DNA from: Dehalococcoidia bacterium
GTDB taxonomy: Bacteria; Chloroflexota; Dehalococcoidia; DSTF01; WHTK01
Direction: 5' to 3'
Assembly: GCA_035574915.1 (NCBI GenBank)
Contig: DATLYJ010000139.1
Coordinates: 1 to 33,362 of the forward strand
Length of the DNA: 33,362 nucleotides
Below are positions 14,510 through 33,362 of the stretch, piece by piece. Below the pieces are notes generated by a model, which was not told the origin of the DNA, made no database searches, and saw only the letters and a list, made by a program, of their open reading frames with translations. Positions within the stretch are counted from its first letter, which is position 1; every line of letters starts with the position of its first letter. Position numbers and translations under genes: made by a program.

Positions 14510-15004
14510 AAATTTGCGCCAGCACCAGGCCGCGCGAACGATTTGACGGGACAGCTAGCCAGAAGCGACTGGACGGCAGTGATGGTGGCCGGCGTTGCGA
14601 CTAACGCACTGCTAGGTAAGGCCCCCGGCGTCCAACATGGCGGGTGCCCACGGCGCGTATGCTACTTCGAAGTGTTGGTGGGCGGAGTCGACGATGAGGT
14701 CAGCGCGGCTCGCCGAAATCCACGATGACTGGGGTCCACACAGTGCCATGTGGCGGAATTGCGCCGTCCCTGCCCAGAAGTGCAGCGCCCAATGGGATCA
14801 GTTATGCTTCGCTCGTTCGTGCAGCGGCCTTCCTTCGAAGTGAACCTCGAGATAGCGGCTTTGGCCTTAGCGTCCGAAGGTGCTATCAGCGTCCGTGAGC
14901 CCGGCCTCCTACTGCCAATTGCCTTGGTTGGCCGCCTGCATGAGGCCGCGTTGGTCGTAGGATTGAAACTAGCCCAAACCTTCCCCGCTCGAGGTGCCGG
15001 CTAG
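14510..15004 (+). other. gene-poor gap; possible short decayed ORF 14750-15004
   Basis: About 500 bases lie between the substrate-binding gene's promoter and the membrane glycosyltransferase. The best frame is an 84-codon GTG-started frame at 14750-15004, whose second half is hydrophobic (REPGLLLPIALVGRLHEAAL). Its stop abuts the next GTG directly. I recognise no family and see no ribosome binding site. It may be a remnant left when the glycosylation cassette was acquired. No RNA gene or insertion sequence was found. Confidence 0.3.
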
Positions 15005-17221
15005 GTGGGCCTCTGGAAGGCGGCGGCGCTCCGTTTCAGAGATGGATGGCACCTTCAACGGGCTGCGGATGTCTTCGTTGCGGTGCTCTGTCTTATCGTG
15101 CCAACCGCATACGCCGTCGCACAAGGTCAGGACACGAACTGGGACCAGAGAAATTACCATTACTACGGCGCCTATGCGTTCTTAAACGGGCTTAGCTCCT
15201 TCAATATTCTTCCCAGCCAAATCCAGACATTCCTAAACCCATTACTATTCGTTCCGTCGTACCTGCTTATCTCGAACCTATCTCCAGTACTCGCAAGTGC
15301 CGTACTTGCCTCCTTGCACGGGCTTAATTTCCTGTTGGTCTTCTCGCTAAGTAGAACAATATTCCGGTCGATTCCTTCTCTATCGACCTCGGCTCTGCTC
15401 TCAAAGTATCTATTGCCGATCATAGCGACCATCATCGGGGGCTCTGCGCCGATCTTTGTCAGCGGAGTTGGGACGACATTTGGTGACAACCTGACGAGCG
15501 TTCTTGTCCTACTCGGCTTGTTGCTAATTGCCACACATTTGAGATCGTCGTCGTCCTTCCGGGTAGCTGGTGCTGGCCTGGCGTTCGGTGCTGCCACAGG
15601 ACTGAAATTGACGAATATGACCTTTCTCATCGGAGCCGTCGCATCGTTCTGGTGGATTTCGCGAAGTATTCCTGACGTTCTGTCACGTCTGACGATATTC
15701 GGGTTCGGCGCACTGGCCGGCTTGCTGATCACGCACGGCTATTGGAGCTACTATCTGACCCAGGAGTTCGAGAGTCCGCTCTTTCCTTTCTATAACGCTA
15801 TATTCAGGTCGCCATTTTACGATCCCATCAACTGGCGAGATGCCCGCTACATCCCGGACTCGCTGTGGGAGGGCTTGGGCTATCCATTTCAGTGGGCAGA
15901 AGGGAAGCATCCCACTTCTGAACTGCCGTTCAGGGACCTTCGTTTCGCGATCATAAGTATCCTCGCGCCGGTCTCGTTCTTGGTACTGGCCGTTCGCGGC
16001 CGCCGGTGGATCGCCATACCGAGCGCGGTCGGCTCCCCAGGCGTCGTCGTGCTGCTGTTCTTCTTGTCCAGCTTCGTCGTGTGGTTGTTCACGTTTGCAG
16101 TGTCTCGGTACGTCGTTGCGTTGGAGCTCCTTACAGGACTTGTGATGGTAATGCTGATCGTCTGGATCGTGCAGAACAGGCAAGTGGCCGTTACCCTCGT
16201 GATAATCGCCGCTGCCGTGACCGTGCTGACTACGGAGCCTTCGGATTGGGGACGCGCGTCATGGAGCGGCGATTGGTACGCCGTGGACGTACCCGCTCAG
16301 CTCAAGCGGCAGGACCAAATGTTCATAATGTTGGGCGACGAGCCTACTTCCTACGTCATTCCATTCCTTCCGAAGGACGCTCGCTTCATCCGAATTGAAA
16401 GCAATTTGTACGTCCGTCCCGAAACCAAGCTGTTCCAACTGCAGCGAGATGCGATTGCGCAGCATGAGGGACCGATCATGACCCTCGGCGTCCGCGTACC
16501 GTCGGGGATTCCAAGCCTGCAGAGCTTGAGCCGTTACGGGCTCCGCCTGTCTGGTGGAGGGACGGCTGTGGACGCTGAACAAGTGCTTTCGCGCTCTCTG
16601 CAGGGAAACGAGGATTTGACCTGGACGCTCGGTCCTGGAGATGAGTACGTCGTCCGGCTCTACGACACGTCAAACGGCGGGCGGACTCTTCTCGCAGGAG
16701 TTCTGGTTGTGGCCGCCGGGCAAGGAAGATCCGGAACGATCACTGCCTCGCCGAATCCATGCTCAGGCTCGCGGTGCACCACGACAGTCACCTGGACTTC
16801 TCAGGGCGTCTCCTCTGCGCAGGTAACGGTCGAGGCCGGAGGGATGGGGGAGTCGCCGTTTGCGGGCGGCGCGTCCGGCAGTAGCGAGGCACCGTGGATA
16901 TTAGCCGGTCAGGAGTATATTTTTCGCCTCCACGGGACTGGCATTGGGGATTCGTCCGCCTTGCTAGCGGGCGTCCTGGTGACCGGAGTGAACAAGTCAT
17001 CATCGGGGAGGGTCACCGCCTCGCCGAATCCTTGTCGGCCTACGGAGGCTTCTCAGTGTTCGATCAAGATCGAGTGGACCACCGAGGGGGCGGCCTCGGC
17101 GGAGGTGACGGTCCAGGCAGTTCGCCGGACGGAACCCAGCGCGACAGGTTGCGTCCGGTTCCGCTCCAAGGTGAACCGCTTTGTTAGCTGTCCCCTCGAG
17201 CGGACGGAGTCTCCTCCGTAA
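15005..17221 (+). CDS. polytopic GT-C-like membrane protein with C-terminal Ig-like modules
   Basis: A 738-residue protein. Roughly the first 420 residues hold ten or more membrane helices. The first external loop carries DTNWDQRNYHYY (Asp43, Asp47), where GT-C polyprenyl-phosphate-sugar transferases place the catalytic acid. A soluble region follows. After about residue 520, two related beta-rich modules appear: YVVRLYDTS / LLAGVLVV / TITASPNPC / TTTVTW, and YIFRLHGTG / LLAGVLVT / RVTASPNPC / SIKIEW. These look like extracellular Ig-type repeats. With the downstream GT2 and GtrA it fits the polytopic transferase slot of a three-part Gtr system. The gene is only about 45-47% GC near its 5' end. 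The last 40 residues may be out of frame. Confidence 0.75.
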   Translation: MGLWKAAALRFRDGWHLQRAADVFVAVLCLIVPTAYAVAQGQDTNWDQRNYHYYGAYAFLNGLSSFNILPSQIQTFLNPLLFVPSYLLISNLSPVLASAVLASLHGLNFLLVFSLSRTIFRSIPSLSTSALLSKYLLPIIATIIGGSAPIFVSGVGTTFGDNLTSVLVLLGLLLIATHLRSSSSFRVAGAGLAFGAATGLKLTNMTFLIGAVASFWWISRSIPDVLSRLTIFGFGALAGLLITHGYWSYYLTQEFESPLFPFYNAIFRSPFYDPINWRDARYIPDSLWEGLGYPFQWAEGKHPTSELPFRDLRFAIISILAPVSFLVLAVRGRRWIAIPSAVGSPGVVVLLFFLSSFVVWLFTFAVSRYVVALELLTGLVMVMLIVWIVQNRQVAVTLVIIAAAVTVLTTEPSDWGRASWSGDWYAVDVPAQLKRQDQMFIMLGDEPTSYVIPFLPKDARFIRIESNLYVRPETKLFQLQRDAIAQHEGPIMTLGVRVPSGIPSLQSLSRYGLRLSGGGTAVDAEQVLSRSLQGNEDLTWTLGPGDEYVVRLYDTSNGGRTLLAGVLVVAAGQGRSGTITASPNPCSGSRCTTTVTWTSQGVSSAQVTVEAGGMGESPFAGGASGSSEAPWILAGQEYIFRLHGTGIGDSSALLAGVLVTGVNKSSSGRVTASPNPCRPTEASQCSIKIEWTTEGAASAEVTVQAVRRTEPSATGCVRFRSKVNRFVSCPLERTESPP

Positions 17222-17232
17222 GGAGTAATCGT

Positions 17233-18264
17233 ATGGGAGCGAGACATGGGGATGGGGCCACGGGGCGGCACCTGGAAGGGTCGAGCCGAGTCCGGGTGCG
17301 AGGGGCATTGCCGAAAGTGGCGGTCCTTATACCGTGCTACAACGAAGCCATGTCCGTGCAGAAGGTCGTGAGTGACTTCAAAGAAGTCCTTCCGGGCGCG
17401 TCCGTCTACGTCTATGACAACAATTCGACCGACGCAACGGCGGACCTTGCGGTGGCAGCGGGGGCGAATTTGCGACATGAGCCGCTGCAGGGCAAGGGCA
17501 ACGTGGTACGACGAATGTTCGCGGACATCGAAGCCGACGTTTACGTGCTTGTGGATGGCGACGACACGTATGACGCTTCTACTGCGCCAAAAATGATCCA
17601 CATGCTGGCCGCGAACGACCTCGACATGGTCACAGGCGTTCGAGTTACTGACTCACCATCGGCATATCGTCCCGGGCACACTTTTGGGAAGAATCTCTTT
17701 GCCTTTTTGCTCGCAAGGATATTTGACAGGGCGGTGAAGGATGTCTTCTCCGGTTATCGCGTCTTCTCTAGGCGCTTCGTCAAGTCCTTTCCCGCGCTCT
17801 CGAGTGGCTTCGAGATTGAGACAGAGCTAACGCTGCACGCCCTCGAACTTGGCATGAAGTTCGCGGAGATCGAAACTCCCTACCGGCCGCGACCACCTGG
17901 CTCTACGAGCAAGCTGCGGACGTTCAGAGATGGCTTCCGGGTCTTCAGGACGCTGGCCTTGTTCTTCAAGGAGGAGCGGCCTCTGCTCTTCTTCGGTACG
18001 ATTTCTTTCTGCCTTGCGGCCCTGTCGGTACTGCTAGCGATCCCCGTGGTCAAGGACTACCTTGAGACCGGACTCGTGCCGCGGTTGCCGAGCGCAGTGC
18101 TGGCCAGCGCGATCATGCTTGTCGCGTTCTTGAGCCTCACGGCGGGCATCATCCTCGATACGGTGACGCGCGGGCGTCACGAATTGAAGCGCCTCTTCTA
18201 TCTGAGTCTCCCGACGCTCTCAGCACACGCCGACGACGAGCAAGGCGGCGGGGGGCGGACATAG
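17233..18264 (+). CDS. family 2 glycosyltransferase, GtrB/DPM1-like
   Basis: A 343-residue enzyme. AAGGAG 8-9 bases before ATG 17233 supports the start, although conserved sequence begins only at about residue 27 (VAVLIPCYNE). The catalytic domain shows VYDNNSTD, the DXD element VDGDDTYD and FSGYRVFSRR. Two C-terminal membrane helices (about 245-265 and 280-305) are typical of GtrB-like enzymes. Such enzymes load a sugar from a nucleotide donor onto polyprenyl phosphate at the inner membrane face. It lies 11 bases after the GT-C protein and 8 bases before gtrA, so the three form one operon. Confidence 0.88.
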   Translation: MGARHGDGATGRHLEGSSRVRVRGALPKVAVLIPCYNEAMSVQKVVSDFKEVLPGASVYVYDNNSTDATADLAVAAGANLRHEPLQGKGNVVRRMFADIEADVYVLVDGDDTYDASTAPKMIHMLAANDLDMVTGVRVTDSPSAYRPGHTFGKNLFAFLLARIFDRAVKDVFSGYRVFSRRFVKSFPALSSGFEIETELTLHALELGMKFAEIETPYRPRPPGSTSKLRTFRDGFRVFRTLALFFKEERPLLFFGTISFCLAALSVLLAIPVVKDYLETGLVPRLPSAVLASAIMLVAFLSLTAGIILDTVTRGRHELKRLFYLSLPTLSAHADDEQGGGGRT

Positions 18265-25959: not shown

Positions 25960-26314
25960 GGGGACGACAGGTTTCGACAGGGAACGCCGGACCCGGATTG
26001 CAGGCCGAGGGTGCCGTCAGCCTCGTTAATCACGGTGGCAAAAAGTAACTGGCGAACGTGAACTCGCCCTCGCCGCTTAATTAAGCGGTGACGTCGGCCT
26101 CCGCCTCACCCCGATGGGCGGAGAACCGGCGACGCAATGTCGGGGTGCTGCGCCGGCGACGTCGATAGCTGGCGCCGAAGACCATCGACAAGGCCGCGTT
26201 CTGAGCCCGCCGGCCGGCGTGGGCGCGGCGAGACCAAAAGGCCGGACAAGCCTGTAGCAGATCCCGGACGGTCTTCCTCTGGACGGGGGGTTCGATTCCC
26301 CCCCGTCTCCACCA
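25960..26314 (+). ncRNA. ssrA: transfer-messenger RNA (tmRNA), one-piece
   Basis: A 355-base tmRNA that rescues stalled ribosomes. The 5' end GGGGACG (25960-25966) pairs with CGTCTCC (26304-26310) as the acceptor stem, followed by A and an encoded CCA (26312-26314). The D-like loop (ACAGGTTTCGACAGGG) and T arm (TTCGATT at 26291-26297 between G and C runs) are standard. The tag frame starts at GGC 26051 and encodes GERELALAA, ending at TAA 26078-26080 with a further TAA at 26082-26084. The resume codon is Gly, not the common Ala. The 3' end is the attachment point of the downstream mobile island, and the island's recombinase frame reads antisense through it. Confidence 0.96.
26051..26077 (+). 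other. tmRNA proteolysis tag coding segment
   Basis: Nine codons from GGC to GCT encode GERELALAA, ending in the ALAA degron recognised by ClpXP-type proteases. Adjacent frames are interrupted or lack the ALAA end. Dehalococcoides, from memory, has GERELVLAG. Confidence 0.85.
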
Positions 26315-27766
26315 TCTCCAAACGTCTCCACGGGCCTGTTCTTCGGGGCTCACCAGGTAGACGCACGAGCCGCTTCTCCTGACTGCTACCGATAGCAGCG
26401 CGCGAAAAGCTGGCGTGGGCACGATAGCGCCGATCAGCTTGGAGTCGAGGTCAAGGTAGGCCCGCTCAATCAGCGGCGCCAAGAGCCTACGACGTTCCTC
26501 CTCGGTTGCCTCCTTCCACAGTTGGTCCAGGTTTGCAAGCAGGTTGGCCGCGACCGTCGAGTCCACGGAGGTGCTGCCGCTGGCCTCGAGGATCTGGGCA
26601 TCGATTCGAGCGAGTCTTGCTTGGTAGGTGCGTTCGGGTATCTCGAGATTCACATAAGCGGCGGCCAGGCGGCGACGCTGCTCTCGCAGGTCGTCTAAGT
26701 TCGCACCACTCGGCACACGGCATGCGCCTTGGGCGATGAGCTCGCGCCAGTTTGGGGGAAGTTCGAGGGACGTGACGATCCGTTGAATTTGAGAGTCGAA
26801 TGAGTGGGCCATGGCCGAGCGGCCGTTGGTCGGGCAATCGTTGGCATGGCGCTCGCGGTACATAGGGGCGCCAAAGCGGTGGCGGTCGGACTGCAAGGCT
26901 TGACCGCAGTGACCGCAGGCCGCGATGCCTTGAAGCAGGCCCGCCGGCCCGGAAGTGCGCCTGGGAACAGGCAGGCGCCTGCGTGCTTGGACGGCGTCGA
27001 AGAGCTCCTGAGAAACGATGGGCTGGTGGTTACCCTCCAGTACCCTGCCCTTGTAGCGAAAGCTGCCGACGTAAAAGGGATTGGCGAGGAGGTCCTTGAG
27101 GGCGTGGGCGGTGAAGTTCCTGCGCTCGCGGGTGCGGAAACCCTGGGCGTTGAGGCGACGAGCGATTTCCCCGTAACTGGCGCCGGCCGCGCGGGCCTCG
27201 AAGGCCTCATGCATAGCCCGCGCCTCCTCCGGGACGGGGACCGGCGTCGCGCCGGGCTCAGGCGCGCGGTAGGCCCAAGGCAGCGGGCCAGGCGCGCGGC
27301 CCTGCTCAGCCTGGAAGCGCTTTACCTTGCTGACGTGGAAGCCCAACTGCTCGGAGAAGTACTGGGCGAAGGCACCCATCAAGGTCAGAAGGAGCCGGCC
27401 TTGAGGGGTGGTGAAGTCGGCGTACTCCTCCTGACAGCTCACGAACCCGAGATCGGACTTCCCGAGTATCTGGAGGGCCTGACACTGGGTCAGGATGTTG
27501 CGCGCCCAGCGGTCGACGCTGTGCACGACGACAACGTCGAACTTCCCTCGGGGAGCGTCGTCGAGCAGGCGCCGCAGTTCTGGCCTCTTCTCGATTTTGT
27601 CTGAGCGCGCACTCCTTCCCGGTTCGACATACACCTCGACAAGGTCGTAATCGCGCTTGCGACATAGGGCCCGAATCCCGGCTTCCTGCGCTTCGAGTGA
27701 GGCGCCTTCGACCTGCTTCTTGCCGGAAACACGGACGTAGCCAACGGCACGAAGTCTAGGAGCCAT
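26081..27766 (-). CDS. large serine recombinase (integrase), 3' end antisense to ssrA
   Basis: A 561-codon serine recombinase. The N-terminal resolvase domain starts YVRVSGKKQ with catalytic Ser14 and Arg12, and continues with VVVHSVDRWARN and LLLTLMGAFAQ. The Recombinase domain (about 165-270) shows ANPFYVGSFRYKGR. Next comes a reduced zinc ribbon (CGHCGQAL, then DCP) and a coiled-coil stretch (about 345-440). The normal end of the family is near residue 470. From about residue 484 the frame enters the ssrA 3' end and runs antisense to it, giving a basic tail (YRRRRRSTPTLRRR) before the stop at 26081. Its ATG overlaps the stop of the 51-residue upstream gene. It is presumably the island's integrase. 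Confidence 0.92.
   Translation of the reverse strand: MAPRLRAVGYVRVSGKKQVEGASLEAQEAGIRALCRKRDYDLVEVYVEPGRSARSDKIEKRPELRRLLDDAPRGKFDVVVVHSVDRWARNILTQCQALQILGKSDLGFVSCQEEYADFTTPQGRLLLTLMGAFAQYFSEQLGFHVSKVKRFQAEQGRAPGPLPWAYRAPEPGATPVPVPEEARAMHEAFEARAAGASYGEIARRLNAQGFRTRERRNFTAHALKDLLANPFYVGSFRYKGRVLEGNHQPIVSQELFDAVQARRRLPVPRRTSGPAGLLQGIAACGHCGQALQSDRHRFGAPMYRERHANDCPTNGRSAMAHSFDSQIQRIVTSLELPPNWRELIAQGACRVPSGANLDDLREQRRRLAAAYVNLEIPERTYQARLARIDAQILEASGSTSVDSTVAANLLANLDQLWKEATEEERRRLLAPLIERAYLDLDSKLIGAIVPTPAFRALLSVAVRRSGSCVYLVSPEEQARGDVWRWWRRGGIEPPVQRKTVRDLLQACPAFWSRRAHAGRRAQNAALSMVFGASYRRRRRSTPTLRRRFSAHRGEAEADVTA
26304..26330. repeat. candidate attachment junction with three TCTCCA copies
   Basis: TCTCCA occurs at 26306-26311 (ssrA end), 26315-26320 and 26325-26330, 9 and 10 bases apart. 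The first and third are part of CGTCTCCAC (26304-26312 and 26323-26331), so nine bases of the ssrA 3' end are repeated inside the element. This is the probable chromosome-island boundary. The other end is outside the window. Confidence 0.5.
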
Positions 27767-27911
27767 TCGACCGCCTCAGGAGGATCGCCCTCACGACCTC
27801 GGCCCAGGTGGTGAGCAGGTACTCGACCTCGGGTCCCTTGAGGGCGACTTGCCCTTGGTCCTTACCATTGCGGACCAATACACGCTCTCTCACGGCCCGG
27901 GAGTCAACCAT
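27756..27911 (-). CDS. small protein of 51 residues, overlapping both neighbours
   Basis: Not recognised. ATG 27911 lies inside the last codons of the XRE gene (8-base overlap), and its TAG lies inside the first codons of the recombinase (11-base overlap). The product begins MVDSRAVRERVLVRNGKDQG and ends ILLRRSNGS: a charged N-terminal half and a hydrophobic-amphipathic helix (EYLLTTWAEVVRAILLRR). Exact nesting between two real genes argues that it is translated and couples their expression. It might be a recombination directionality factor or a regulator, but there is no motif evidence. Confidence 0.6.
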   Translation of the reverse strand: MVDSRAVRERVLVRNGKDQGQVALKGPEVEYLLTTWAEVVRAILLRRSNGS

Positions 27912-28140
27912 CGAGCTCGATCTCCTCGAAGAGCTTGTCGAAGTCATCGCGCGGGAAGGCGGCTGTTATTCGTGCGCGAGTCTTGGGGCCGGCGTTGCGC
28001 TTGCCGGAGAGGAGCTGGGACATGAAGCCGGAGGAGATACCGCAGCGCCGTGCCAGGTCGTTCTGGGAGACGTTTCTTCGGGCCATCCACCTCAGAAACG
28101 CCTGGCGGCGCACGCGGAACTGGTAAAATGTCCTAGCCAT
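27904..28140 (-). CDS. XRE-family HTH regulator, 78 residues
   Basis: A compact Cro/C1-type helix-turn-helix protein: FLRWMARRNVSQNDLARRCG is the first part of the HTH, and SSGFMSQLLSGKRNAGPKTR is the recognition helix and turn. There is no extra domain. It is first in an overlapping three-gene minus-strand unit ending in the serine recombinase, so it probably controls that unit or the lysogeny-like state of the island. A TATACT -10 (28162-28167) lies upstream. It is divergent from a second XRE gene. Confidence 0.85.
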   Translation of the reverse strand: MARTFYQFRVRRQAFLRWMARRNVSQNDLARRCGISSGFMSQLLSGKRNAGPKTRARITAAFPRDDFDKLFEEIELDG

Positions 28141-28161: not shown

Positions 28162-28236
28162 AGTATAGGGCCGCTAGCTGCAGGTTGCATAGCCCGCTTG
28201 CAAACGCTTGCTACGACAGCACTGAGGTGTTACGCT
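28162..28236. promoter_or_regulatory. divergent promoter-operator of the two XRE genes
   Basis: Minus strand: TATACT (28162-28167) for the 78-residue regulator. Plus strand: extended -10 TGTTACGCT (hexamer 28231-28236) and TTGCTA (28208-28213) 17 bases upstream; the start codon 28243 is 6 bases after the hexamer. CGCTTGC occurs at 28195-28201 and 28205-28211, one helical turn apart and overlapping the plus-strand -35; ACGCTT recurs at 28232-28237. These are candidate operators. Confidence 0.55.
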
Positions 28237-28242
28237 TCAGTC

Positions 28243-28641
28243 ATGACTAAGGTGCCCCAGCTGGCTCAACTCCTCACCGACCTGCGCACGCGTGCCGGCC
28301 TGAGCCTGCGCGAGGTGGAGCAGAGGACCGGAGGTGTGGTGTCTAACGTCTACCTCTCGCAACTGGAGCACGGGCGCCGGACCGAGCCCAATCCGCGGAT
28401 ACTTGTCGCCCTCGCCCGCGTGTACGGACGGCCGGTAGGCGAACTCTTCGAGGCAGCCGGCTACGTAGACGCGCCTTCAGCGACCGAGGTGGACGTTGCG
28501 TTCGAACAGGTGATCGCGGACCCCAAGTTCCAGTTCGGCACGCGGTTCAAAGGCGAACTCGACCAGGCCAGCAAACGCGCGATCATCGAGCTCTACGAGA
28601 GCGCGACCAACAAAAGGCTGTTGAAAGGTGAGGGCGAGTAA
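28243..28641 (+). CDS. XRE-family HTH regulator (ImmR-like)
   Basis: A 132-residue repressor from ATG 28243. The HTH covers about residues 8-62 (LLTDLRTRAGLSLREVEQRT, then NVYLSQLEHGRR). A 60-residue C-terminal region continues with FEQVIADPKFQFGTRFKGEL. The frame is open to 28198, but the promoter hexamer lies downstream of that point, so the ATG at 28243 is preferred, probably on a leaderless message. The stop overlaps the next gene's GTG by 14 bases. This is the usual arrangement of an XRE repressor with its ImmA/IrrE-type partner in integrative elements. Confidence 0.85.
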   Translation: MTKVPQLAQLLTDLRTRAGLSLREVEQRTGGVVSNVYLSQLEHGRRTEPNPRILVALARVYGRPVGELFEAAGYVDAPSATEVDVAFEQVIADPKFQFGTRFKGELDQASKRAIIELYESATNKRLLKGEGE

Positions 28642-29770
28642 CTCGCTCTTCGCCCTCGAGGACTTCGCCCGGAACTACATCCGGCCTTACAGCCACCACT
28701 CAGAGATTCGAACTGAACACCTGGTTGAGACGTTCCGGCAGTTCTACGGACTGCCGCCGTTTCCAGACGCCTCTGACCTCCGCCAGGTGTGCGCAAGGCT
28801 GGGGATCACGATCACCGCGCTCCCGGAGGCGCCTGAAGGTCTCATTGCCGTAAACACCTGGCACGACGAGTCGCCAACCATTCATGTCCGGCCCGACGCC
28901 AGCATGAAGCAGTGGGAGACGACAATCCCTCACGAGATACGCGAAGTCCTGGAGAACGCGTTCAAGCGGGCGAAACCCAAGGGCTATGCGGGCCTGGACA
29001 CCCATGACAACCGCGCCATGAACGGCAAGTCCGACCGCTTCGCCGGTCACCTTCTCATGCAGAGCGAAGCAACGCATGAGCGCCTGTGGGAGCTTGGATT
29101 CGACCTGCCGCGTTTCGCCTCGGAGAGGGGCCGGTCGTTGTCGTCCGTAGTCGTGCGCCTGCAGGAGCTGTATTCCAAGAGTTCCTCGTCCGCGGGCCCG
29201 GTGGGCGGTGTCTGGCTCTTCGAGGCCCCGTGGCGGCTCGTGGCCAGGGGGCGGGCAAGCGCGTCAGACCTCGTTATCCGCCAACGAGCCCACATCAAGG
29301 GCTTCTCGCTTAGTAAGAGAGGACCCCATGCCCTCTTCCTCGAGCACGGACTACTTCCTCGCAGAGAGTTGAGCGCGGCGCAGTATGCCCTGACGGAGGC
29401 CGCAATCGAGGTAGGCCGCCCAGTCATGATCGAAATCGACCGTGGCGCACTATTCGACGGCGAGAATTACTTCGTCATCGCGGAGCCGTTCTTCGTTCGC
29501 TGGGTCCCATGGCGGGTCTTGGTATTCGCCGTCCGCGACGACTCGCTCTGGATTCTCGCCCCGTGGATTGACCGGCTGGGCGTGGAGGTGACCGATCGGT
29601 TTGTCCAGTTCGAGGATTGGCTAAATTCTCGACCAGGGTTCATAGTCGCTCGCACGCCGCGTCAGTTCGAACGCCGTCTCCGGCAGCGGCCCGAGGTTCA
29701 AACGCAGTACTACCCAGCGCCCCTACGCGAATCGTCCGTCCCCGGGACTGCGGCCCCAGTCCGAACCTGA
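28628..29770 (+). CDS. ImmA/IrrE-like protein with degenerate metal motif
   Basis: A 380-residue protein starting at GTG 28628, inside the end of the XRE gene. Residues about 20-180 resemble ImmA/IrrE (DUF955) proteases. The candidate metal helix is TIPHEIREVLENAF, where the family has HEXXH, so the second His is Glu. The later family element usually reading EANxFAAxLLMP appears as KSDRFAGHLLMQ, losing the usual acidic ligand. The remaining ~200 residues form a beta-rich domain (GVWLFEAPWRLVARG, VLVFAVRDDSLWILAPW) that I do not recognise. ImmA proteins cleave the adjacent repressor on DNA damage. Here activity is uncertain; the protein may sense or bind instead. The gene converges on the tyrosine recombinase, 4 bases away. 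Confidence 0.7.
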   Translation: MRASNSLFALEDFARNYIRPYSHHSEIRTEHLVETFRQFYGLPPFPDASDLRQVCARLGITITALPEAPEGLIAVNTWHDESPTIHVRPDASMKQWETTIPHEIREVLENAFKRAKPKGYAGLDTHDNRAMNGKSDRFAGHLLMQSEATHERLWELGFDLPRFASERGRSLSSVVVRLQELYSKSSSSAGPVGGVWLFEAPWRLVARGRASASDLVIRQRAHIKGFSLSKRGPHALFLEHGLLPRRELSAAQYALTEAAIEVGRPVMIEIDRGALFDGENYFVIAEPFFVRWVPWRVLVFAVRDDSLWILAPWIDRLGVEVTDRFVQFEDWLNSRPGFIVARTPRQFERRLRQRPEVQTQYYPAPLRESSVPGTAAPVRT

Positions 29771-29774
29771 CAGG

Positions 29775-30701
29775 TCAGATTCCAAGGGCCTCCGCCACCT
29801 TCGCCCAGCCCCGGTCCTCCTGTCCCTCCAGCCGGCGCAGGTAAGTGGTCGTGACGGCCAGGCTCGAATGGTCGAGGAACCGGCTCACCTCCTCGACGGA
29901 CTCGCCCGCGTCCCGGCGCAGCTTGGCCGCCGAGTGGCGGAAGATGTGCACGCCGGCTTGCGGCAGGCCAGCCTTCTGCAGGTAGCGGCGCAGGTTGGCG
30001 TAGAAGGTGCCGCCCGTGATGCCGCGCCCGTCCGCGAGAGACGGCCACAAAGAGTCGCCCGGCGCCATCGTCGCGAGGTCGCGCCCAGACGCCGCCAGCC
30101 AGGCCCGCAGCGCCTCCAGCGCCGGCTGCGGCAGCTCTCGCCGCCCGGTCTTGCCGCCCTTGCCGCGGTAGGCGTAGTAGCAGGTCGCGCCCTCGAAGCT
30201 CAGGTCGCCGGCCGTCAGGCCCAGGACCTCGGAGCGGCGCCGGCCGGTGAAGGTGAGGAACAGGATGATCGCCCGGTCCCGCAGCCCGACGGGCGTCTCC
30301 GGGACAACGGCGAGCAGGCGGCGGATGTCGTCCGCTGTCAGGCCCCTGGGGTTCGAGGGTGAGACGCGCGGGCGCTCGATGGCGTCGCAGGGGTTTGAGG
30401 CGACGACCTTCATCCTGATGAGGAAGCGGTAGTAGCTGCTCAGGCAGGCCAACCGGGCGGCGATGGTGATCGAGGAGGGCTGCTTGCCGGAGAGGCCGCT
30501 GCCATAGGCCCAGGCGAAGGCGTCGGCACTGGTGACCTGGTCAGGCGTCTTCGCGGCGCGGCCGAAGAACTCGTTCAGCATGCGCGAGTAGGCCTGGACG
30601 GTGCGCAGCGAGCCGGAGCGGCGCTGCTTCTCGGCCAGGAAGGCGTAGAGGGTGCGGTCCCAGCCGGAGGCGGATTCGTCGAGGTAGGCGATGGCGGTCA
30701 T
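29775..30701 (-). CDS. tyrosine recombinase/integrase, XerC/D-like
   Basis: A 308-residue recombinase. ATG 30699-30701 is chosen over GTG 30705-30707 because AAAGGAG (30710-30716) is 8 bases from the ATG but only 2 from the GTG. The N-terminal SAM-like core-binding domain spans about 15-105. All catalytic residues are present: Arg155 (TGRRRSE), Lys181 (RGKGGK), His252 and Arg255 (HIFRH), His278 (FLDHSS) and the nucleophile Tyr287 (TTTYL). The lack of an arm-binding domain suggests a Xer-like or transposon-type enzyme. It is the second recombinase class in the island, so the region may be composite. Confidence 0.92.
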   Translation of the reverse strand: MTAIAYLDESASGWDRTLYAFLAEKQRRSGSLRTVQAYSRMLNEFFGRAAKTPDQVTSADAFAWAYGSGLSGKQPSSITIAARLACLSSYYRFLIRMKVVASNPCDAIERPRVSPSNPRGLTADDIRRLLAVVPETPVGLRDRAIILFLTFTGRRRSEVLGLTAGDLSFEGATCYYAYRGKGGKTGRRELPQPALEALRAWLAASGRDLATMAPGDSLWPSLADGRGITGGTFYANLRRYLQKAGLPQAGVHIFRHSAAKLRRDAGESVEEVSRFLDHSSLAVTTTYLRRLEGQEDRGWAKVAEALGI

Positions 30702-30769
30702 GAGCACGACTCCTTTCTTGAGGTCGTGCTATACACGCGTAGTCTCACTAACGAGTCAAGCCTTGCAAG

Positions 30770-30970: not shown

Positions 30971-31340
30971 GGCAGCGCCGACCCGGACAGACCCTCGCGC
31001 GCGTTTTCTAATCTGAGGCCGGCGCCAAGGCCCGGTGGGCCTCTACCGATATAATGACCGCCGACTGAAAGCAGCGAGGGCCACGTTTCGTGAGGCTTGT
31101 CTGGGAATGACTCAACCTTGGCCAGTCCAGAAGCATGAGTTCTACCGCCTTCCATCAGCTCACGAGAAGTCGATGAGGCAATGGCTGGTGGCATGAGCGT
31201 TTTCGTGGGCCGAGGCGTGCTCGGCGTGAACCCCGTCTCTCATGGACCTCGGCACACCAATCCAGTTTGTCCTGTACGATCTGATGATTTCGGCGCCGGC
31301 AGTGGCCGGCCACCCCGCACGGGAGCCGGATCCCAGAGTT
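30971..31340. other. gene-poor gap upstream of the methyltransferase
   Basis: No convincing coding sequence. Features seen are a small hairpin (AGGCCC/GGGCCT, 31028-31042) and a lone TATAAT (31050-31055) with no -35. An in-frame ATG at 31242 belongs to the methyltransferase frame but has no ribosome binding site. Likely debris of earlier insertions. Confidence 0.5.
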
Positions 31341-31355
31341 GGAGGTGCTCTTCCC

Positions 31356-33362
31356 ATGCCAGGCATCAGTAAGTCCCAGACAAACAAGCGCCCGATCGAA
31401 TCCTACGAGCACCGGGACAAGCAGCGCCTCAACAACCCGCCCGTCGGACTGGTGACGCCCCAAACCGACCCCGACGCCGGGCAGAAGAAAAAGCGCTACG
31501 CCTACGACCCCCACCTCGACCCCCAGCTCGTCTGGGCCGGCAAGGCCGAGCACACCTCCTTCGAGGTGCCCACGGTCTCGCTGCATGTGCACGAGCGCAT
31601 CGACCCGCGCACCATCATCGAGGCCGTGCGGAAGCGGAACGCCAACAGCCAGCCGCTACAGCTCGGCCTCTTCGAGGCCGAGCGCCGGGAGCCGCTCCGC
31701 CAGGCCATCGAGTTCTACCAGCACAAGCACGGCTGGTCGAACCGCCTGATCGCCGGCGACTCGCTGCTGGTGATGAACTCGCTGCTGGAGAAGGAGGGCA
31801 TGGCCGGCAAGGTGCAGATGATCTACATCGACCCGCCCTACGGCATCCGCTACGGCTCCAACTTCCAGCCCTTCGTCAACAAGCGCGACGTGAGGGACGG
31901 CAGGGACGAGGACCTGACCGCCGAGCCGGAGCAGATCAAGGCCTTCCGCGACACCTGGGAACTGGGCATCCACTCCTATCTCACCTACCTGCGCGACCGG
32001 CTGCTGCTGGCAAAAGAACTGCTCACCGAGAGCGGAAGCGTGTTTGTGCAGATCAGCGATGAGAACGTGCACCACGTGCGCGAATTGATGGATGAGGTGT
32101 TTGGGGCGGAGAATTTTGCAAGACTGATCACATTCGCCAAGACCGGCAGCATGGTTTCCAATGAGTTGGGCCGGACGAGTGATTATCTAGTTTGGTATGC
32201 GAGAGAGAAGGAACACCTGAAATATCGCCAGTTGTATTCTGACAAGTTGCCCGATGCCTTCTACAGCAACGTAGAGCTACCCGATGGCGCCGTGCGAAAG
32301 ATCACGCGGGCCGAAATGATCGATCCGTCACTTTTGCCATCGGGGGCGAGAGTTTTCCGGCTCGTAAGCTTGGAGAGTTCGGGGCCGCCGGGTGAAGATA
32401 CACCCCTTGTATTCGAGGGAGAAACCTTCAGGCCCAACAAGAACAGTCATTGGAAACTGGCGTACCCCGATGGCATGGAGGCGTTGAAACGAACGGGGCG
32501 GATGGTCAAGGATGGGAACAAGCTGCGTTGGAAATACTACATCAGCGACTATCCACTCAAGGTCTTGTCCGAAGTTTGGGACGACACGGCCGGCTTCAAT
32601 CCCGACCAAGAATATGTGGTCGAGACGCGCACCAAAGTCATCGAGCGCTGCCTCCTCATGACCACCGACCCCGGCGACCTGGTCTTCGACCCGACCTGCG
32701 GCAGCGGCACCACGGCTTTCGTCGCCGAGCAGTGGGGCCGTCGCTGGATCACCTGCGACACCTCGCGCGTGGCGCTCACGCTCGCCAAACAACGCCTGAT
32801 GACCGCCGTGTTCGATTACTACGAGCTGGCGCATCCAGAAGAGGGCGTGGGCAGCGGCTTCAAGTACAAGACCGTGCCGCATGTGACGCTCAAGTCCATC
32901 GCCAACAACCCGGAGATCGACGGCATCCACGCCCGCTGGCAGCCGCGCCTCGAACCTCTGCGCAAGCAGTTGAACGCCCTGCTCGGGCAATCGCGGGAGG
33001 AATGGCAAATCCCGCGCGAGCCCGAGGGCGCGTGGTCGGAGGAGGCGAAGCGGCTCTTGGCCGAGTGGTGGCAGTTGCGGCGCAAGCGCCAGGAGGAGAT
33101 CGACGCCGCCATCGCCCGCCACGCGCCCCAGGAGACGCTCTACGACCAGCCCTTCGTGGACAAGAAGAAGACGCGCGTCAGCGGTCCGTTCACGGTGGAG
33201 GCCGTGCCCGCCCCGGCGGTCAAGTCGGTGGACGAGCTACTCGAAGGCGCGCCACAACCGGCGGACGCATCCATCGCCCGCTCCGGCGAGACCCTGCGCC
33301 AGGCCGAATGGCGCGATGAGCTCCTGCGGGCCGGTATCCGAGGCAAGGCCGGGCAGTACATC
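31356..33362 (+). CDS. type III-like adenine-specific DNA methyltransferase (Mod), 3' partial
   Basis: 669 codons are visible and the frame runs off the window. ATG 31356 has GGAGG (31341-31345) 10 bases upstream; ATG 31242 is in frame but less likely. Motif IV DPPYG (Asp159) precedes motif I DPTCGSGTT (Asp445), the beta-class order of type III Mod enzymes that make N6-methyladenine. Between them, at about residues 245-420, lies the target-recognition region. Its DNA (about 32090-32620) is roughly 47-48% GC in the lines I counted, against more than 60% on either side, suggesting a swapped specificity domain. The N-terminal block (NKRPIESYEH, NNPPVGLVTP, LVWAGKAEHTSF) belongs to a long variant. 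A restriction subunit would be expected past 33362. Confidence 0.9.
   Translation, partial: MPGISKSQTNKRPIESYEHRDKQRLNNPPVGLVTPQTDPDAGQKKKRYAYDPHLDPQLVWAGKAEHTSFEVPTVSLHVHERIDPRTIIEAVRKRNANSQPLQLGLFEAERREPLRQAIEFYQHKHGWSNRLIAGDSLLVMNSLLEKEGMAGKVQMIYIDPPYGIRYGSNFQPFVNKRDVRDGRDEDLTAEPEQIKAFRDTWELGIHSYLTYLRDRLLLAKELLTESGSVFVQISDENVHHVRELMDEVFGAENFARLITFAKTGSMVSNELGRTSDYLVWYAREKEHLKYRQLYSDKLPDAFYSNVELPDGAVRKITRAEMIDPSLLPSGARVFRLVSLESSGPPGEDTPLVFEGETFRPNKNSHWKLAYPDGMEALKRTGRMVKDGNKLRWKYYISDYPLKVLSEVWDDTAGFNPDQEYVVETRTKVIERCLLMTTDPGDLVFDPTCGSGTTAFVAEQWGRRWITCDTSRVALTLAKQRLMTAVFDYYELAHPEEGVGSGFKYKTVPHVTLKSIANNPEIDGIHARWQPRLEPLRKQLNALLGQSREEWQIPREPEGAWSEEAKRLLAEWWQLRRKRQEEIDAAIARHAPQETLYDQPFVDKKKTRVSGPFTVEAVPAPAVKSVDELLEGAPQPADASIARSGETLRQAEWRDELLRAGIRGKAGQYI

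Follow-up and report, generated by a model that had tools for sequence, protein, structure and literature searches.

The closest described systems are the DsiB islands of Dehalococcoides, in which the 3′ end of dsiB always overlaps attL, so that the gene stops beyond the island boundary, even inside ssrA (McMurdie et al. 2011, PMC3146451). A function of the antisense-encoded part was considered unlikely there on account of its divergence, and it was proposed that dsiB may be fully functional on the circle only (PMC3146451). A comparable arrangement is that of phage Mx8, in which integration changes the C-terminus and the specificity of the integrase (Tojo 1996; Magrini 1999, both as cited in PMC6070905). 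According to the Islander paper (PMC4383910), no serine recombinase was known to use tRNA-type genes as targets, and no later statement of serine integrases at tRNA genes was found in the open-licence papers searched.

The window, that is, the whole stretch of 33,362 nucleotides analyzed here, is the entire contig C139 of a 183-contig Dehalococcoidia assembly, and the island that it carries continues past the right end of the contig (Table 1). Like the DsiB islands, it has a minus-strand serine integrase gene beside ssrA whose 3′ end runs past attL into antisense ssrA with no earlier stop, and it probably shares with them direct repeats of the ssrA 3′ end, tandem islands and insertion into the T-arm (PMC3146451). 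The recombinase departs from DsiB in sequence, with about 35% identity to the enzymes of the Dehalococcoides type, and its tail comprises 77 codons versus 22-26 for DsiB. The gene content differs as well: the visible module consists of HTH, ImmA-like, XerD-like and type III methyltransferase genes, and the visible 7 kb of the window island do not show the DsiB six-gene module (dsiB, dsiA, recF-like, parB, mom, RNAP-like), with no dsiA, recF-like, parB or mom gene among them. ARAGORN detected no tRNA in the window island either, whereas DsiB islands carry an embedded tRNA-Gly-like locus. The likeness to Mx8 lies in an attP within the integrase gene and a new C-terminus on integration; Mx8, however, encodes a tyrosine integrase with a specificity change shown by experiment (PMC6070905), whereas the window encodes a putative serine integrase. 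With the integrases of A118, TP901-1 and SPbeta it shares domain order and fold, with sequence matches to 4kis, 3bvp and 9dxh, but these matches stop about 45 residues before the core, and the overrun tail has no counterpart in them.

Table 1. Features of the recombinase–ssrA junction and of the visible part of the island (window coordinates)
Feature	Positions	Strand	Basis
Large serine recombinase ORF, 561 aa, integrated (attL) form	26081..27766	-	Pfam PF00239 6e-31 (Resolvase), PF07508 7e-21 (Recombinase)
Conserved recombinase body (codons 1-484), reaching the end of ssrA	26315..27766	-	alignments; AlphaFold2
Recombinase ORF tail read antisense to tmRNA (77 codons and TAA), unconserved and predicted to be disordered	26081..26314	-	
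ssrA (tmRNA) gene, complete after integration	25960..26314	+	ARAGORN; Rfam RF00023 153 bits
tmRNA tag reading frame, GERELALAA and stop	26051..26080	+	ARAGORN
29-bp att repeat (ssrA 3′ end), identical at C150:535-563	26286..26314	+	
Predicted crossover, at the midpoint of the attP dyad, T-arm of tmRNA	26298..26299	.	dyad analysis, rebuilt attP junctions
Right-arm half of the attP inverted repeat, CTCCAAAC, in recombinase codons; also in L119, L120	26316..26323	+	
Small Cro/C1-type HTH protein, adjoins recombinase	27904..28140	-	Pfam HTH_26 1.6e-5
HTH repressor-like protein (ImmR-like position)	28198..28641	+	Pfam HTH_31 3.6e-12
IrrE/ImmA-like peptidase candidate	28628..29770	+	Pfam Peptidase_M78 1.8e-4, just under family cut-off
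XerC/D-like tyrosine recombinase	29775..30707	-	Pfam PF00589 1.1e-20
Type III-like DNA methyltransferase, runs off contig, island cargo	31242..33362	+	PF01555 9.5e-31; PADLOC MTase_III 1.6e-172

The recombinase is read from an ATG-initiated ORF of the listing that converges with ssrA, the latter being placed at the same coordinates by both ARAGORN and Rfam RF00023 (153 bits; gathering score 47). The first-pass annotation had claimed that this frame continues opposite ssrA for about 78 codons and ends just past the tag stop codon, and the ORF listing, ARAGORN and Rfam confirm the overrun: the overlap of 234 nt holds 77 codons and a TAA at 26081-26083, directly beside the tag stop (26078-26080), and leaves the tag frame itself uncovered. 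The island edge that it had set at about 26314 stands as the end of the repeat but not as the likely crossover, which the attP dyad places 16 nt further inside. Overlap with the target RNA gene recurs in 41 of the 41 non-redundant, nearly full-length relatives sited at an RNA gene, and the overlap as such is therefore not due to chance.

The ORF carries an N-terminal Resolvase domain followed by a Recombinase domain, both above the Pfam cut-offs, and is thus a large serine recombinase. The catalytic serine S14 in an RVS motif is nearly invariant in the recombinase alignment, and the zinc-binding cysteines C284, C287 and C311 are invariant. The C-terminal structure of A118 (4kis) aligned over profile positions 145-439, including the coiled-coil region, for which the AlphaFold2 model gives helices at 357-372 and 378-395; alignment to the solved serine integrases A118 and SPbeta reaches only about profile position 440. 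The model is confident to about residue 472, with a pLDDT of 83 at 461-470, 53 at 481-490 and under 50 across nearly all of 487-561, the low confidence in the tail stemming partly from a lack of aligned relatives. The predicted recombinase fold is thus complete before the attachment site, ending near residue 472 in the model, and the enzyme, presumed active, would recombine attP with attB.

Queried with the ssrA 3′ end, the same genome yielded a 29-bp identical copy on contig C150 and an 87% match on contig C64. The left flanks of these two copies share 88.5% identity across 563 bp, and therefore represent the same kind of element end. C139 and C150 are not joined, the far-end ssrA 3′ repeat being seen on a separate contig. 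We infer that C150 carries the far end of the window's island, although its junction may instead belong to the right end of a second ssrA island at this locus. The ssrA loci of the same family and the same order showed no downstream synteny with C150, and an empty site was not demonstrated among them. When the circle junction was built as C150 arm, core and window, the predicted ORF encoded 520 aa with a different, 36-aa tail ending in WWRRGGIEPPQLQTGPVVLPHRVQQHWGAFAVAWAA, versus the 77-aa antisense-tmRNA tail. Provided that C150 is the far end, attP would lie inside the integrase frame and the C-terminus would be changed by integration, and the earlier proposal that integrated and excised forms encode different C-termini holds on the same condition (561 versus 520 aa). 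The C64 junction (17400-17975), attP-like with both arms, was considered as a natural attP and rejected: the junction adjoins a relic of a recombinase end and a D5_N-type primase gene, and the core is one base shorter, so that its frame is not comparable and the likeness of the C64 and C150 tails is no coding evidence. It probably belongs to a decayed related element.

The rebuilt junction contains an inverted repeat, GTTTGGAG/CTCCAAAC, centred 16.0 nt inside the ssrA 3′ end (between 26298 and 26299), whose right half is spelled by the last codons ahead of the core, GDVWRWWRRGG. Junctions rebuilt from G145 (twice), G200, G211 and G013 possess CGTGTTTC/GAAACACG-type repeats with the identical centre, and the dyad centre falls within 1 nt for G049 and for a tRNA-Asp element of G045. 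No such inverted repeat was found at a few other junctions, namely the second repeats of G200 and G013, and G189. Shuffled sequences matched the 8-bp repeat of the window in 14 of 500 cases; the agreement in centre across divergent elements is the stronger argument for the predicted dyad, and suggests a crossover at about this position in the T-arm.

Relatives were collected from 294 genomes of the class and from 80 loci of a genome-contig collection, the named ones belonging mostly to Dehalococcoidia and other Chloroflexota. The 41 counted members overrun antisense 20 tmRNA, 10 tRNA-Asp, 7 tRNA-Ser, 2 tRNA-Arg, 1 tRNA-Gly and 1 tRNA-Pro genes, and among the relatives found, all that lie within 1 kb of an RNA gene overrun it. 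Several further recombinases terminate in a partial copy of the ssrA 3′ end, in line with what tandem arrays would give, and the viral contig collection yielded one distant relative, which overruns a tRNA-Ala. In Chloroflexota, loci L012, L036-L044 and L141-L165 carry serine recombinases at tRNA-Asp, -Ser, -Arg, -Gly and -Pro genes. The same genome contains, on contig C4 (L049), a second serine recombinase (14944-16710) about 32-35% identical to that of the window, which runs antisense through a tRNA-Asp (15003-15079).

The tails of these enzymes have little in common. Their median length is 20 codons, with the 77 of the window as the maximum, and each of the three frames, labelled WWRRGG, VETGE and GDGGE, occurs at tmRNA. 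A tree of 82 recombinases requires at least six frame changes among the 20 tmRNA members, and even the sister pair L019/L023 (SH-aLRT 100) differs in frame. The tails rebuilt for the excised forms of other elements range from 11 to 76 aa, and no tail peptide is common to the 41 integrated forms or to the rebuilt excised ones. Among the 41, the shortest available frame is used in 18, the middle one in 18 and the longest in 5; the loci being related, this is a trend and not a test. Selection for a long tail was accordingly rejected, the longest frame being used in only 5/41.

Nor does the tail of the window stand out against its own tmRNA. All three antisense frames through the gene are open (77, 69 and 79 codons), so that any entry frame would give a long tail, and the used frame stays open in 27% of trials when bases are shuffled with the 29-nt core fixed; its length is therefore not beyond chance. 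The codon score of the tail is -0.15 versus +0.13 for the body, of which no full 77-codon segment scores as poorly. The length and the basic character of the tail stem from this GC-rich tmRNA and not from the recombinase, and the tail itself appears to be neutral.

These data are best accounted for by an ssrA-integrated island whose attP is embedded at the very 3′ end of the integrase gene, the overrun being passive and the tail an unconstrained passenger, a reading we hold to be highly probable. The last recombinase codons before the core would encode the right half-site of attP, and integration would join the gene to whatever sequence lies past the crossover: antisense ssrA in the chromosome, the other end of the element in the circle, or a neighbouring island where elements stand in tandem. 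Read antisense, the 3′ ends of tRNA-like genes present no stop in any frame over the core, so that the ORF would overrun to the first chance stop, and an overrun becomes all but unavoidable. As the overrun would run merely to that stop and the enzyme would be complete ahead of the tail, the tail would be a passenger. Against this reading, the frame is open through at least 20 variable codons ahead of the core in every member, so that the proper end of the protein may lie beyond the core.

The first-pass annotation had proposed that the overrun may act as a switch linking excision state, integrase activity and ribosome rescue. This proposal is not supported, given a tail unconserved in frame, length and sequence in either state, a fold complete before the att site, and codon statistics worse than those of all full body pieces; the overrun looks passive rather than a switch. 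A narrower form, in which the 36-aa circle tail and the 77-aa tail would alter activity or directionality in the manner of Mx8, is unlikely. It draws on two forms predicted to differ, on the Mx8 precedent, where a new int 3′ end changes specificity without inactivation (PMC6070905), and on the circle-only proposal of McMurdie et al. (PMC3146451), but neither the rebuilt junctions nor the 41 integrated elements show a conserved tail, with frame, length and residues differing throughout. Moreover, in the G013 tandem array further recombinase copies stand behind another island and keep a circle-type tail although integrated, and the tail therefore would not reliably report integration state. A related version, to which we give slightly less credence still, holds that the exchange is used: the short circle tail would favour integration, and a chromosomal tail of any kind would reduce or redirect the activity. 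If this were true, the attachment site would report the integration state to the enzyme without conserved tail sequence, and would do so across the clade of tRNA- and tmRNA-targeting serine integrases.

Antisense regulation, with recombinase mRNA pairing with tmRNA and lowering rescue, or tmRNA transcription silencing the integrase, is very improbable. The 234-nt convergent overlap is real, and translation to 26081 would need an mRNA covering this stretch, but the promoter scan revealed no promoter-like site, and the two weak minus-strand terminator-like sites inside ssrA are no more than occur in shuffles. The layout follows mechanically from the position of attP and recurs in the same way at tRNA-Asp, -Ser, -Arg, -Gly and -Pro genes, a finding that speaks against a circuit specific to tmRNA. 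It is hardly conceivable that the XerD-like tyrosine recombinase of the island (29775-30707) is its integrase and the serine recombinase overlaps ssrA by coincidence, even though tmRNA sites are usually used by tyrosine integrases (PMC4383910): members of the same clade lie antisense in this position at 20 distinct tmRNA loci and at 21 further loci with tRNA genes, the attP dyad matches, and the XerD-like gene is internal to the island, with a degraded copy on C150.

That degraded copy lies behind the ssrA repeat (L047 1599-2057) and is 90.6% identical, and G070 encodes a XerD-like recombinase, 68.5% identical, near an ssrA-linked serine recombinase. At 28198-29770 of the window, an HTH repressor followed by an IrrE/ImmA-like peptidase has the layout of an ImmR/ImmA pair; such pairs control excision in some integrative elements. 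On C150, the stretch to the right of the ssrA repeat encodes an Hma-type defence system (HmaA, HmaB and the start of HmaC; L047 2634-10667). Taken together with the type III methyltransferase of the window island, this system makes the ssrA locus of the genome look like a hot spot for defence genes.

The overrun phenomenon and the speculation about a circle-only function have been known for dsiB since 2011 (PMC3146451), and what is new here is the reconstruction of attP and the finding that the phenomenon extends to serine integrases located at tRNA genes. The data close the switch idea, in that an attP in the end of the integrase gene and a stop-free antisense target yield the overrun. Such overruns mislead gene prediction by adding false C-terminal extensions to recombinases. 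The side result is the weightier one: in Chloroflexota, serine integrases of this clade use tmRNA genes as well as those of tRNA-Asp, -Ser, -Arg, -Gly and -Pro.
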